DNA of 45,000 nt from Butyribacter intestini (GTDB lineage Bacteria; Bacillota; Clostridia; Lachnospirales; Lachnospiraceae), in NCBI GenBank assembly GCA_001414325.1, contig LLKB01000001.1, positions 398,437-443,436 on the forward strand, read 5' to 3'. A program made the translations under genes and the position numbers. The notes beneath the pieces were generated by a model. The model saw only the letters and a program-made list of their open reading frames with translations, made no database searches and had not been told where the DNA came from. Positions 4,268 through 44,713 of this stretch are shown here, piece by piece (position 1 is the stretch's first letter; each line of letters begins with the position of its first letter).

Positions 4268-4481
4268 TAGGTAATTGCGAAACTAATTATATGTTGTGTT
4301 AATTGCACAGATATAACAAATAATATCGTCGGCACGCTTTCGCTATGTTGTCGTTCGTAGCAGTACACAAATCAGCAAAAAACGCTGATTAAGTGCTGAC
4401 GACGACAAAACTGCCGACTAACTCTATTTTGTTATATCTGCACAATTTAACCGCAGATTATGATAGTTTCGCAAACGCCTA
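4268..4481. mobile_element. MITE family A, long copy 1
   Basis: A 214-bp non-coding element bounded by imperfect 18-bp inverted ends (TAGGTAATTGCGAAACTA and TAGTTTCGCAAACGCCTA). Inside it, between two TTAA/TTTAA sites, lies a second palindromic element starting TTGCACAGATATAAC and ending GTTATATCTGCACAA. The same composite recurs at 20571-20783 with very high identity, while shorter copies at 34078-34143 and 44618-44693 lack the inner part. It abuts the nudC ribosome site. No transposase is in the window, so movement would need one in trans. Confidence 0.85.
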
Positions 4482-9536: not shown

Positions 9537-10901
9537 ATGATTCATAAGTTTAAAGCAAAAGATGTAAATATTTTATTAGATGTAAACAGTGGCGGAGTTC
9601 ATGTTATAGATGACATAACATATGATATGCTTGATTATGTTGAGCCGCCTTTTGATGCGGAATGTCCAAAAGATGTGAAAGCAAAGCTTTCAGACAGATA
9701 CTCGGCAGAAGAGATAGAAGAAACTTACAAAGAGATAGTAGAGCTTTACAATGAAAAACTTCTCTTTTCGGATGATGTTTATGGTGATTTTGCAGAGACA
9801 AAAGTTGAATCACCTATCAAGGCAATGTGTCTGCATATAGCACATGACTGTAATCTCCGCTGCAAATACTGCTTTGCATCGACAGGTGATTTTGGAACGG
9901 GAAGAAAACTTATGCCTTTCAGTGTAGGAAAACAGGCGATAGATTTTCTTCTTGAAAAGTCAGTCGGCAGAGAAAATCTTGAACTTGATTTCTTTGGCGG
10001 AGAACCTTTGATGAACTGGGATGTTGTAAAGCAGATCGTAGAGTATGCAAGAAGCAAAGAGGAAGAATATGGCAAGAAATTCCGTTTTACGATTACGACA
10101 AACGGTATGCTTCTTGATGATGAAAAGATTGATTATATCAATAAAGAAATGTCAAATGTAGTTCTTTCTATCGACGGAAGAAAAGAAGTAAATGACAGAA
10201 TGAGAGTAAAGGTTGACGGAACAGGCTGCTATGACCGTATTGTAAAGAATTATAAAAAGCTTGTAGAGAAGCGTGGTGATAAGGAATATTATGTCCGTGG
10301 AACATACACAAACTACAATCTCGATTTTTCAGAGGATGTAATGCATCTTTATAAACAGGGTTTTGACCAGGTTTCGGTTGAGCCTGTTATGGAAGATGAG
10401 AGTGTTGAGTATGCGATTACCGAAAAAGACCTTGACAAGATTTATGCAGAATATGACAAACTTGTTGATAAGATTGCAAATATAAAGAAAAACGGTGGAT
10501 TTATTAATTTCTTCCACTTTATGATAGACCTTGACCAGGGACCTTGTGTAATAAAAAGACTTCGTGGATGCGGCAGTGGAAATGAGTATGTTGCGATTAC
10601 ACCTGATGGAGATATTTACCCTTGCCATCAGTTCGTTGGACATGAAGAATACAAGATGGGAAATCTTGAAGAGGGTACATTTAATACTGATATTAAGAAA
10701 GAGTTTGCAGGATGTCATGTATATTCAAAGCCATCGTGCCGTGACTGCTGGGCAAAATTCTATTGCAGCGGCGGATGTAATGCAAACAATTATATTTATA
10801 ACGGCGATATTCACAAGGCATATGAGCTTTCATGCAAGATAATGAGAAAGCGACTCGAATGTGCCATACTTACTAAGGTTTGTGAACAGTTAGACAGGTA
10901 A
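9537..10901 (+). CDS. scfB: SCIFF maturase (radical SAM/SPASM thioether-forming enzyme)
   Basis: A 454-residue radical SAM enzyme of the SPASM group that installs thioether crosslinks in the SCIFF peptide. The first 80 residues resemble a peptide-recognition (RRE-like) region. The SAM-binding cluster is C105, C109 and C112 in CNLRCKYC; FFGGEPLMNW follows near residue 158. The C-terminal SPASM region (from about residue 335) has cysteines in RLRGCGSGNEY, YPCHQF and CRDCWAKFYCSGGCNANN that hold two auxiliary 4Fe-4S clusters. RBS AACGGAG precedes ATG 9537. The stop codon TAA is formed by the first bases of a MITE (10898-11082), so the native 3-prime end may have been altered. The protein end CEQLDR looks normal for the family, as far as I remember it. 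Confidence 0.96.
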   Translation: MIHKFKAKDVNILLDVNSGGVHVIDDITYDMLDYVEPPFDAECPKDVKAKLSDRYSAEEIEETYKEIVELYNEKLLFSDDVYGDFAETKVESPIKAMCLHIAHDCNLRCKYCFASTGDFGTGRKLMPFSVGKQAIDFLLEKSVGRENLELDFFGGEPLMNWDVVKQIVEYARSKEEEYGKKFRFTITTNGMLLDDEKIDYINKEMSNVVLSIDGRKEVNDRMRVKVDGTGCYDRIVKNYKKLVEKRGDKEYYVRGTYTNYNLDFSEDVMHLYKQGFDQVSVEPVMEDESVEYAITEKDLDKIYAEYDKLVDKIANIKKNGGFINFFHFMIDLDQGPCVIKRLRGCGSGNEYVAITPDGDIYPCHQFVGHEEYKMGNLEEGTFNTDIKKEFAGCHVYSKPSCRDCWAKFYCSGGCNANNYIYNGDIHKAYELSCKIMRKRLECAILTKVCEQLDR

Positions 10902-11082
10902 CAGTTCAGCCCATCATTTATTATATTCGTAAACCTGCCAGCAGGCTGTCAGTCGCTGCTATGCAGCTTGTGTTTACTTCATTTCATAAATGAAAGGCTA
11001 TTCCGCCCCAAAAAACAAGTCAATAATACATTGAGCAAGCTCATGTATTATTGACTTATCTTTTTGGGGGATGGACTGTTAC
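10898..11082. mobile_element. MITE family C, copy 1
   Basis: A 185-bp palindromic element with ends GTAACAGTTCAGCCC and GGGATGGACTGTTAC. Internal arms AAGTCAATAATACA and TGTATTATTGACTT are also complementary. It overlaps the maturase stop codon. Related copies are at 34617-34799 and 24762-24944, with a lone end at 20191-20204. Confidence 0.85.
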
Positions 11083-11145: not shown

Positions 11146-11464
11146 TGAAATGCAGTGATGGGGAATAGTAACTGTCAAACGGAATACAGAAAGCTGCTGG
11201 TTGATGCGAAGCAGTAGAAGTGACACAGTGAACTCACCTTTGAGCATCCGGTTGAACCGATAGATGCGATTGATATATGATTTATCATATATTTGTATTT
11301 GTCAAAGTAGATTAGGACGGAAACCCACCGTTATAAGGGCAGGGTATTGATTTTTGATGTACCTGGTGAGAGCATGATTTTTCATGAATAAGAGTGGTAC
11401 CGCGTGGATAATTTTTGATATATTCTCGTCTCTATGTATAAGATATATAGAGGCGAGTTTTTTT
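11146..11464 (+). ncRNA. T-box leader (tRNA-Leu sensing)
   Basis: A T-box riboswitch senses uncharged tRNA and lets transcription proceed. The T-box sequence AGAGTGGTACCGCG lies at 11391-11404. The terminator stem CTCGTCTCTAT / ATAGAGGCGAG with seven T's is at 11425-11464. In the stem I specifier region, GAACTCACC offers CTC at 11233-11235 as a leucine specifier codon, followed by the usual purine. This fits leuA downstream. The strong promoter ends 7 nt before the leader. Confidence 0.93.
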
Positions 11465-13960: not shown

Positions 13961-14088
13961 AGAATTGAAATCACAGTGCAAATTCCAATCCTAAAACAAC
14001 GAAAATATTAAGTTGTTTGTTTAAGTGCTTATACATATATTTTAACAGAAAATGAAATTTTTTGTAAGTGTTAAAAAAAATTAATACC

Positions 14089-14150
14089 CGCTTATGTACC
14101 GCTATGCAGTTCTTTGAGTGGGAGTGTACCAAAGAACTGTATAATATCTT
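14089..14150. repeat. Degenerate remnant of the covarying repeat
   Basis: Bases 14089-14113 match 21437-21461 with one mismatch (CGCTTATGTACCG and ATGCAGTTCT blocks), followed by a GAGTGGGAGTGT stretch that resembles the GNRA-hairpin part of the full element. The 5-prime half is missing. A CAAAGAACTGT arm pairs with ACAGTTCTTTG-like sequence here. Confidence 0.5.
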
Positions 14151-20570: not shown

Positions 20571-20783
20571 TAGATAATTGCGAAACTAACTATATGTTGT
20601 GTCAATTGCACAGATATAACAAATAATATCGTCGGCACGCTTTCGCTATGTTGTCGTTCGTAGCAGTACATAAATCAGCAAAAAACGCTGATTAAGTGCT
20701 GACGACGACAAAAATGCCGACTAACACTATTTGTTATATCTGCGCAATTTAATCAAGATTTATGATAGTTTCGCAATTACCTA
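20571..20783. mobile_element. MITE family A, long copy 2
   Basis: A 213-bp element with ends TAGATAATTGCGAAACTA and TAGTTTCGCAATTACCTA. It carries the same inner TTGCACAGATATAAC element as the copy at 4268-4481, so the composite itself has been copied. It abuts the ribosome site of the next gene, as copy 1 does with nudC. Confidence 0.85.
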
Positions 20784-21364: not shown

Positions 21365-21508
21365 GCCAAGAATATGTTTATAATTCTGATTGAAGGGCGT
21401 TAGAAATGCATCGGTATTTAGCGGTCGTATTGTGACCGCTTATGTACCGTTATGCAGTTCTCCGAGCGAAAGCGTCCCTGAACATAAAATTATAAACATA
21501 TTCTTGGC
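21365..21508. repeat. Structured repeat with covarying stems, copy 1
   Basis: An outer stem of 21 perfect base pairs (21365-21385 with 21488-21508) closes a core. The core has GGGCGTT, a long hairpin (AGAA/TTCT, TGCAT/ATGCA, CGGTA/TACCG, AGCGGTC/GACCGCT) with loop GTATTGT, then TCCGA, a GC-GAAA-GC mini-hairpin and GTCCC. The copy at 29532-29676 keeps the core letters and the loop while its stems differ in sequence but still pair. It follows the GNAT gene, and may also end its transcript. Confidence 0.75.
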
Positions 21509-21532: not shown

Positions 21533-21561
21533 TTGATAAATTTTTATCATGGTGTTATACT
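21533..21561 (+). promoter_or_regulatory. Promoter of the hydrogenase-maturation unit
   Basis: TTGATA (21533-21538), 17 nt, TATACT (21556-21561). The +1 should fall near 21568, at the start of a 190-nt leader. Confidence 0.75.
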
Positions 21562-21565
21562 GTTC

Positions 21566-21756
21566 AAGGCTCTGAAACGAAAGGTTAGTCCTGACGCAAA
21601 GGCATGAAAAATAAATTATAGATTGTAAAGTAAAAGTGGCATATACATCACTGTTTGGACTTATTGTGGTATTACCGGTATATTTAAGATTGAAAATATT
21701 TATCGAAAATAATTGTCGAATGGTTATATCATGCTGAATTTACTGTGTTTATAAAT
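21566..21756 (+). promoter_or_regulatory. Long untranslated leader, candidate riboswitch
   Basis: Between promoter and terminator lie about 190 nt without an ORF. The first 40 nt contain GAAACGAAAGG and CTGACGCAAAGGC; later GTGGTATTACCGG appears. GACGCAAAG and TTACCG recall parts of the c-di-GMP-I (GEMM) aptamer, but the P2 hairpin of that class cannot be drawn convincingly. The promoter-leader-terminator-gene order is that of a transcriptional riboswitch. The class is unassigned. Confidence 0.35.
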
Positions 21757-24761: not shown

Positions 24762-24944
24762 GTAACAGTCCGGCATTTCATTTCTGATATGAGGGCAAAG
24801 CCCTCGCGAGCACGCTCAGATGGAACAAATTTATTTGTTCCATCCTCATTTTGCTTTCGCGTAAATAAACAAAAGCTGCATTGCGGCGACTGACAGCTTG
24901 CCGGCAGGTTTATAAATGTAAAAAATGAGAGACTGAACTGTTAT
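24762..24944. mobile_element. MITE family C, copy 3 (rearranged)
   Basis: Ends GTAACAGTC and CTGAACTGTTAT. The interior holds the GCTGTCAGTCG block of the other copies in reverse orientation and a 63-bp palindrome (24804-24866) shared with the CarD upstream region. It seems to be a mosaic of two repeats. Confidence 0.65.
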
Positions 24945-29531: not shown

Positions 29532-29676
29532 GCAAGAAATGATATGGAATTTTTAGCGATGGGCGTTGAACATCTGTCAGTACTTAATGAGCGTATTATG
29601 CTCATTTAGGTACTGCTACTGATGTTCTCCGAGGCGAGAGCCGTCCCAGAGTCTAAAATCTCATATCATTTCTTGC
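29532..29676. repeat. Structured repeat with covarying stems, copy 2
   Basis: The outer stem GCAAGAAATGATATG/CATATCATTTCTTGC (15 bp) plus TTTTAG/CTAAAA closes the same core as at 21365-21508. The core has GGGCGTT, a hairpin (GAACATC/GATGTTC, CAGTAC/GTACTG, AATGAGC/GCTCATT) with loop GTATTAT, TCCGA, a GGC-GAGA-GCC mini-hairpin and GTCCC. It lies between convergent genes. Confidence 0.75.
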
Positions 29677-33318: not shown

Positions 33319-33542
33319 GTTGATTGCGAAATTTTACTATATGTTGTGTTAATTACAGATGATGCTAGTGTACTGACCTGTTGATATTTTGCCAAATAAC
33401 TTGTATAAATTCCCATCTGCTTCGTTGTCATCAATCGCCGTAGCCCGCTACAGCTCATTCTTCCGTCTTGCAGATTGAAAATTTATCCTGAGTTATTTAG
33501 CTAAAAGTCAGCAGGTCAGTACACTAGTTTCGCAAATATCTA
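33319..33542. mobile_element. MITE family A copy interrupted by family B
   Basis: The left end GATTGCGAAATTTTAC and right end TAGTTTCGCAAATATCTA, with the internal ATATGTTGTGTTAATTACAG, mark a short family A element. It is split at CTAG by a complete family B element (33365-33527). Confidence 0.8.
33365..33527. mobile_element. MITE family B, copy 1
   Basis: A 163-bp element with perfect 16-bp inverted ends CTAGTGTACTGACCTG / CAGGTCAGTACACTAG. A CCGTAGCCCGCTAC block forms a central hairpin, and both flanks repeat a TTTAGCTAAA-like motif. The related copy is at 35956-36119. Confidence 0.85.
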
Positions 33543-33573
33543 TTTTAATAAAAATGAAAATGAAAGGCGTGTT

Positions 33574-34077
33574 ATGGCTCAGAAAATAGTTGAGATTGCG
33601 GATTTAAAAACAGGTGGAAAAAATGATGAGCTGGTTACTTATGCACTTGGTTCATGTGTCGGGATATGTATGTACGATGAAGGGCTGCATATAGGTGGAC
33701 TGCTGCACGCAATGCTCCCCGATGCTTATGCCGGGTCTATGGAACATATGGATGGTCGTCGGGATATGTGCCCTGAAAGATATGTAAATACAGGAATTGA
33801 AAGATTATACAAAACATTATGTGTCCGTGGAGCAGACAGTGGAAATTTAAAAGTAAAAATTATTGGTGGTGCCAATATGTTTAGTTTTGATTTTTCGGAT
33901 AAAAATATGGACATAGGAACCCAGAATGTTATACAATCAAAGAGGATACTTTCAGAAATGGGGATACCGGTTGTTGCACAGATGACCGGGGGAACGGTTG
34001 GCAGAACCATTAAGTTTTATCCGGGAGATGCAAGAGTGGAGATAAGTGCAACAGATGGAACTAAACATATTATTTAG
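33574..34077 (+). CDS. cheD: Chemoreceptor glutamine deamidase CheD
   Basis: CheD deamidates glutamines in chemoreceptors and, with CheC, tunes adaptation. Catalytic residues are visible: T22, C28 in YALGSCVG and H45 in GLLHAMLPDA. The remaining conserved KVKIIGGANMF and TGGTVGRTI blocks are also present, and the 167-residue length is normal. AAAGGCG precedes ATG 33574, right after a MITE. No other che genes are adjacent. The only receptor-like gene in the window is the PocR protein. Confidence 0.96.
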   Translation: MAQKIVEIADLKTGGKNDELVTYALGSCVGICMYDEGLHIGGLLHAMLPDAYAGSMEHMDGRRDMCPERYVNTGIERLYKTLCVRGADSGNLKVKIIGGANMFSFDFSDKNMDIGTQNVIQSKRILSEMGIPVVAQMTGGTVGRTIKFYPGDARVEISATDGTKHII

Positions 34078-34143
34078 CAGGTGTTTGCGAAACTAATTAT
34101 ATGTTGTGTTAATCGCAGGTTATGATAGTTTCGCAAACGCCTA
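34078..34143. mobile_element. MITE family A, short copy
   Basis: A 66-bp element with ends AGGTGTTTGCGAAACTA and TAGTTTCGCAAACGCCTA, without the inner element of the long copies. It directly follows the cheD stop codon. Confidence 0.75.
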
Positions 34144-34173
34144 AAAATTATTTGGATAAGAAAGGAGCATACA

Positions 34174-34616: not shown

Positions 34617-34799
34617 GTAACAGTTCAGCCTTTCATTTCTTACATTCATAAACCTGCCAGCGAGCTGTCAGTCGCTGCTTTGCAGCTTATGTTTACTCAT
34701 TTCAGAAATGAAAGGCTATTCTACCATAAAAAGGTACTTAACAATATAATGAACAAGCTCATTGTATTGCCAATTATCTTTTTATGGCTGAACTGTTAC
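34617..34799. mobile_element. MITE family C, copy 2
   Basis: A 183-bp element whose 14-bp ends GTAACAGTTCAGCC / GGCTGAACTGTTAC pair perfectly. Inner arms around AATATAATGA/TCATTGTATT also pair. After it, 34800-35009 is AT-rich, with no feature other than the ribosome site of the next gene. Confidence 0.85.
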
Positions 34800-44451: not shown

Positions 44452-44617
44452 TTAATAAGCTGCCGTATAAATCTGCAGTGCTAATTAGAGAAAAAGCTGA
44501 TTTTTTAGTTTTATTGAACTGTTACCTGATAAAGATGGAATATTATATAGAATATTGCAATGCCTAAAAAGATAAGTTATACTCTCTATTAGAATGATTA
44601 GCTGCTGTTTATGTTAG
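44452..44617. other. Intergenic stretch after the LysM gene
   Basis: No ORF. TTGAACTGTTAC (44514-44525) matches one end of MITE family C without a partner. Confidence 0.4.
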
Positions 44618-44693
44618 TAGGTGATTGCGAAACTAATTATATGTTATATTTGTATGCTTCAATTACAGATTATTATAGTTTTGCAAATACATA
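44618..44693. mobile_element. MITE family A, short diverged copy
   Basis: Ends TAGGTGATTGCGAAACTA and TAGTTTTGCAAATACATA enclose 40 bp. It has no inner element. Confidence 0.7.
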
Positions 44694-44713
44694 TTATTTA
44701 AAACAGTAACGGA

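Follow-up and report, generated by a model that had tools for sequence, protein, structure and literature searches.

Several described families of bacterial repeats come close to the hairpin module presented here, which was found in four copies within a 45,000-nt stretch of DNA (the window). According to the available part of PMC3733652, the CGTC-tagged REP super-family consists of dispersed extragenic palindromes that lie mostly downstream of coding regions, as does the module, and that have no dedicated transposase; their CGTC and CCA tags recur in naked copies of the module, which end in CGTC on one side and ACA or CCA on the other. REPINs with RAYT, as described in the accessible sections of PMC3116915, share with it a conserved length and hairpin-forming capacity, frequent compensatory changes and a high copy number, and the stem-loop repeats bcr1, BOX, RUP and ERIC are likewise intergenic, structured and mobile-looking (for the bcr1 type, see the available part of PMC2267715). 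Finally, part of the copies correspond to IS1182-like MITEs, in units of ~214 bp whose terminal repeats match and which show target duplications of 10-14 bp.

There are differences as well. In the same part of their source, the stems of CGTC REPs measure 8-9 bp and the loops 4-5, whereas the module has a three-armed core inside an outer stem (P1) of ~20 bp; the two have their CGTC and CCA tags at swapped ends, and the module falls outside the CGTC REPs as defined there. The terms 'Firmicutes' and 'Clostridi' are absent from the main text of PMC3733652 in its available form. REPINs, as far as the accessible sections of PMC3116915 describe them, differ in architecture, and the module has no link to a Y1 transposase. 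IS1182-like MITEs account for only part of the copies, and their autonomous elements were seen without the module. The module falls outside every family tested and is previously undescribed. No repeat of the bcr1, BOX, RUP or ERIC type is known to combine loops conserved across a whole bacterial family with a stem of fixed length and free sequence.

Module copies in the window

An earlier note on this DNA had placed a structured element at 21365-21508 and 29532-29676 of the window. Both copies are present there, on the plus strand, and show what it had described: the inner stems, the GNRA hairpin, the GTATTGT and GTATTAT loops, GTCCC and TTCTCCGAG. Its description of a two-copy element proved too narrow, as the window holds four modules, all of them matched by the covariance model R1, and a remnant:

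21365-21508, plus strand: module copy 1, naked subtype; R1 120.8 bits, by construction, as one of the 11 training copies of R1
21365-21385 with 21488-21508, plus strand: P1 of copy 1, 21 of 21 paired
21395-21399 with 21473-21478, plus strand: P2 of copy 1
21412-21417 with 21444-21449, plus strand: P4 of copy 1
21421-21426 with 21434-21439, plus strand: P5 of copy 1
21427-21433, plus strand: apical loop of copy 1
21468-21471, plus strand: GNRA loop of copy 1
29532-29676, plus strand: module copy 2, naked subtype; R1 97.8 bits, also by construction, as a training copy
29532-29553 with 29655-29676, plus strand: P1 of copy 2, arms 91% complementary
4319-4429, minus strand: module copy 3 (core), mid-MITE; R1 63.4 bits
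4268-4481, minus strand: MITE enclosing copy 3, with TAGGTAATTGCGAAACTA and TAGTTTCGCAAACGCCTA as terminal repeats
20622-20732, minus strand: module copy 4 (core), mid-MITE; R1 60.6 bits
20571-20783, minus strand: MITE enclosing copy 4, with TAGATAATTGCGAAACTA and TAGTTTCGCAATTACCTA as terminal repeats
14084-14135 (ends approximate), plus strand: remnant, the 3' half of a naked-subtype module, from repeat comparison and sequence; R1 8.6 bits, E 5.1

Architecture and covariation

The alignment of module copies held 226 rows, of which 176 remained after duplicates and parses scoring below 12 had been dropped. The fixed parts are P1 and P2, the latter short, a long arm formed by P3, P4 and P5, and a side hairpin, P6. 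The long arm carries a CT bulge (152 of 176 copies), a TTA/TTAT internal loop (TTA in 154 and TTAT in 138 of 176) and an apical loop that is mostly GTNYTNT in the 176 parsed copies. P6 consists of 1-2 bp and a GNRA loop, the third loop base being a purine in 161 of 162 GNNA loops, with the other 14 of the 176 copies unparsed at this point. P1 is free in sequence and constant in length: in ~58 clean copies of two sister genomes its base precedes the end of the conserved 5' start by 31-34 nt, with 31-33 nt after, a base-to-core distance that is near constant whatever the sequence or context. In the source genome, naked copies mostly have CA before the stem and GTC after it.

The conserved fold with compensated stems that had been claimed from two copies holds for their relatives. 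Paired cells make up 92.8% of the 96 distinct rows taken from relatives in other genomes, compared with 70.2% after shuffling, and the covariation score is 0.520 compared with 0.141 after shuffling and at most 0.074 with partners slid, although fitting the 96-row alignment to R1 favours all these pairing and covariation values. Covariation this strong is usually read as proof of a functional RNA.

Copy number and distribution

The module exists in many copies. The likeness of copies 1 and 2 is beyond chance: a pattern of the letters common to both had five matches in the source genome and its reversed control none. The pattern added three further copies from the source genome and six from a second member of the genus, 28 genomes of which were searched and 2 matched, and the resulting eleven copies were aligned (alignment A2) and built into R1. 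The model, which the earlier note had proposed to build and search with, returned 44 matches in the source genome and, at 63% completeness, 42 in the sister genome G008 (E<=0.001 for the former), as well as matches in 89 of 299 Lachnospiraceae genomes (E<=0.001) in a survey that used stricter filters and scored at most 12 candidates per genome. In a class-wide draw, 10 of 391 genomes were matched (E<=0.0001), all 10 of them Lachnospiraceae, and 6 more listed Lachnospiraceae genomes had no R1 match. A core pattern hit at least 116 contig stretches, and among the matches listed the titles were mostly Lachnospiraceae or Clostridiales. Within the samples searched, the module is restricted to Lachnospiraceae. 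It is a common structured element, found in ~30% of the sampled genera of a major gut family, and it is absent from Rfam.

Six MAG contigs labelled Candidatus Gastranaerophilales or Bacillus (L067, L086, L088, L095, L129, L166) carry typical copies, and their labels may be wrong. One genome (L042, L043, L044) has tandem direct arrays of modules spaced by 187, 137 and 164 nt. A DNA search from module locus L006 found no single same-site locus.

That the element belongs to no named RNA family, as the earlier note had suspected, agrees with all Rfam searches. In the window, Rfam matched T-box and tRNA only and not the module; in the copy 1 region, Rfam 15 at E<=10 gave just three weak matches of 13-17 bits, all short of the gathering score; and at 20 module loci the module was unmatched among other weak or unrelated matches. 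No ribozyme was matched in any of these three sets. The T-box leader (RF00230) lies at 11146-11436. A literature search, with subscription journals mostly outside its scope, found no account of this element by title or start of abstract. In its available part, PMC8040213 reports thousands of candidate RNAs, its tables lying outside the comparison with the module.

Stem rewriting between sister genomes

Stems have been rewritten in place. Sister genes at module sites in the source genome (G000) and G008 share ~91-92% DNA identity, and copies 1 and 2 both have same-site counterparts in which the outer stem is rewritten yet paired. In the 22 pairs of P1 at the copy 2 site, one Watson-Crick pair has been exchanged for another four times, two pairs have been mended and one T.G is new, while at the copy 1 site P1 is wholly different between the sisters yet paired in both, and P5 is broken in the sister. 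Orthology testing left out 6 of 83 copies and dropped 2 of 10 pairings as paralogous or nested, resulting in 8 same-site pairs. With 42-nt flanks included, these comprise 340 unchanged pairs, 24 double changes from one Watson-Crick pair to another, 16 in which both sides changed and Watson-Crick pairing was lost, and single changes to G.T (18), A.C (15) and other combinations (26). The core sequence is partly lost in one species in 3 of the 8.

Counterparts at the same site are present in the sister, itself 63% complete, for four of the ten best-scoring copies of the source genome, and at one site the orientation is opposite in the two genomes, which reflects either an inversion or a second insertion. 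Template switching can yield both two-sided stem changes and inversions, as stated in the available part of PMC8794818.

A stretch between copy 1 and a TM1266-like gene (21555-21605, GGCTCTGAAACGAAAGGTTAGTCCTGACGCAAAGGC) is near-unchanged in the sister and had no Rfam match. It resembles part of a c-di-GMP riboswitch, a likeness that led no further.

RNA or DNA

RNA stems normally favour G.U. The 2,992 pairs of P3-P5 comprised 2,773 Watson-Crick, 38 G.T, 45 A.C and 136 other pairs, 13 of the 45 A.C cells lying at one P4 position and looking like one subfamily; within P5 there were 8 G.T and 3 A.C. P1 contained 195 G.T and 156 A.C among 5,352 pairs. In a tRNA control, a small sample of 7 tRNAs, 6 G.T and 0 A.C were seen in 84 pairs (Fisher p 0.012). 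The closing pair of P6 had 3 T.G and 0 C.A, and one P2 column pair had 28 U-G cells, though the G in question is part of the P6 motif and the pair after it fails in 31 cells. G.T and A.C being equally rare is as expected for a DNA palindrome, and the missing G.T preference together with two-sided rewriting fits DNA-level arm copying as well as or better than stepwise selection on RNA. The P5, P6 and P2 counts, the single P4 position behind 13 of the A.C cells and the GNRA loop point the other way.

I lean towards reading copies 1 and 2 as members of a dispersed set of small hairpin modules, non-coding and of the general REP/MITE kind, whose stems are rewritten at the DNA level. Arm-to-arm copying is the best fit for stem upkeep: re-copying the palindrome from one arm to the other by template switching would keep the stems Watson-Crick, and copies that no longer fold would be lost. 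Spread may occur partly as cargo of IS1182-like MITEs, with the transposase supplied in trans. Counter to this reading are the naked subtype, for which neither a transposase nor a target duplication was found, the autonomous elements that have no module, and the copies enclosed by unrelated terminal repeats. As a guess, some protein may recognise the folded module, either as a DNA hairpin or in the 3' region of a transcript; the unpaired letters might then be conserved because this protein must recognise the fold for the module to spread or be tolerated. The module serves as a warning, as its covariation is strong and yet the lack of a G.U preference and the fast two-sided rewriting point to palindrome copying in DNA. 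It is also a test bed: the arm-copying mechanism can be measured in sister genomes, where copies, shared or not, number in the tens.

A conventional structured RNA with a host-selected fold, either a plus-strand small RNA or a minus-strand 3' UTR of the gene ending next to the module (for example an mRNA 3'-end stabiliser or protein-binding RNA), is possible but rather unlikely. The very strong covariation, the conserved unpaired letters, the GNRA loop, which is an RNA signature, the four same-site copies retained in the sister and the one in opposite orientation there all argue for it; the absent preference for G.U, the partial core losses and the broken P5 of copy 1 argue against it. The selection on RNA structure asserted in the earlier note is not settled, with the GNRA loop on its side and the G.T and A.C counts and the two-sided rewriting against it. 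The module is not clearly an RNA gene, and its GNRA loop still speaks for RNA.

An extension of the dispersed-hairpin reading is that the module represents a new class of selfish structured nucleic-acid modules, tied to no single transposon and captured by several MITE families, whose fold and unpaired letters would be read by a Lachnospiraceae factor and whose ruler-like P1 would be rewritten arm to arm. Such continual rewriting would produce extreme covariation without G.U intermediates. I regard this extension as tentative and doubtful in its full form.

Position beside genes

The module is sited at stop codons. With neighbouring ORFs called by length only, 116 of 162 copies face the 3' end of the right-hand ORF at a median of 33 nt from its stop codon (p 4e-8), and left-hand ORFs are unbiased (78 and 83). 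In the two sister genomes alone, 51 of 83 copies face a stop codon compared with 12 that do not, with 20 undecided. This siting is a further point for a structured RNA, whereas the GNRA strand mostly runs antisense to the gene next to it and no regularly linked gene was found, both of which count against one. The largest ORF cluster covered just 10 of 80 loci, and a linked-protein reading was rejected on this ground.

An unusual intrinsic terminator of the adjoining gene would account for a very stable outer stem located ~14-60 nt past stop codons, and would have no need of the conserved inner loops. The T tract expected after the stem on the minus strand is missing: at least 6 T per 8-nt stretch occurred in 5 of 89 copies, compared with 9 of 89 on the other side, and the mean equalled that of shuffled sequence. 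With so few copies having a stem followed by a T tract, the terminator was rejected as improbable.

MITEs and transposons

One subtype of the module is MITE cargo. From the 83 copies of the two sister genomes, 2 were dropped for short flanks; among the 81 tested, 20 copies, with 3 and 4 included, lie between terminal repeats of the TTGCGAAAC type, with the module in the middle of the ~214-bp MITE, and in 9 of the 20 there are direct repeats of 10-14 bp that represent target duplications. The duplications of copies 3 and 4 are each 11 bp long and read CATAATTTTAA and ATCTTTTTATT, respectively, on the minus strand. In the other 61 tested copies, direct repeats were no more frequent than in shuffled flanks, and for the naked subtype, including copies 1 and 2, no shared terminal repeats, target duplication or transposase were found.

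In two viral contigs, a transposase with a Pfam DUF772 match and an NCBIfam IS1182 match below cut-off (68 bits, cut-off 270) lies between the terminal repeats that the MITEs have. These autonomous IS1182-like elements (L331, L333) had no R1 match and lack the module. An autonomous IS of the MITE group in the source genome was rejected, as the terminal-repeat pairs inspected there enclosed ordinary genes. Modules of other genomes are bounded by terminal repeats of other, unrelated types or stand in tandem, and the module is thus not the property of one transposon.

A single-strand transposon end (Y1/RAYT, IS200/IS605-type) or a REPIN, one of the options raised in the earlier note, is very improbable even though REPINs likewise keep length and pairing through compensatory changes (available sections of PMC3116915): the module sits mid-element wherever a transposon is recognisable, Y1_Tnp, present in 152 of 299 family genomes, is no commoner in module carriers (40 of 89) than in non-carriers (112 of 210; Fisher p 0.21), and no Y1 transposase was matched at E<=1e-10 in the source genome despite its 44 copies, which brings this reading close to refuted for that genome. 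Phage or plasmid origin was rejected, as the copy 4 MITE had no match in phages, copy 1 none in plasmids and the core pattern none in viral contigs, bar one weak partial R1 match of 18.8 bits in viral contig L332.

Sequences at 34074-34149, 44614-44699 and in parts of 33336-33548 have MITE termini and no module, and are probably internal deletion derivatives. At G000:C5:1141018-1141127, a module-bearing MITE stands in place of the core in a naked module, the P1 arms of which remain on both sides. Another dispersed repeat, unrelated to the module, starts with GTAACAGTTCAGCC and occurs at 10898-11044 and 34617-34762 on the plus strand and at 24816-24943 on the minus strand, the copies being 79-89% alike.
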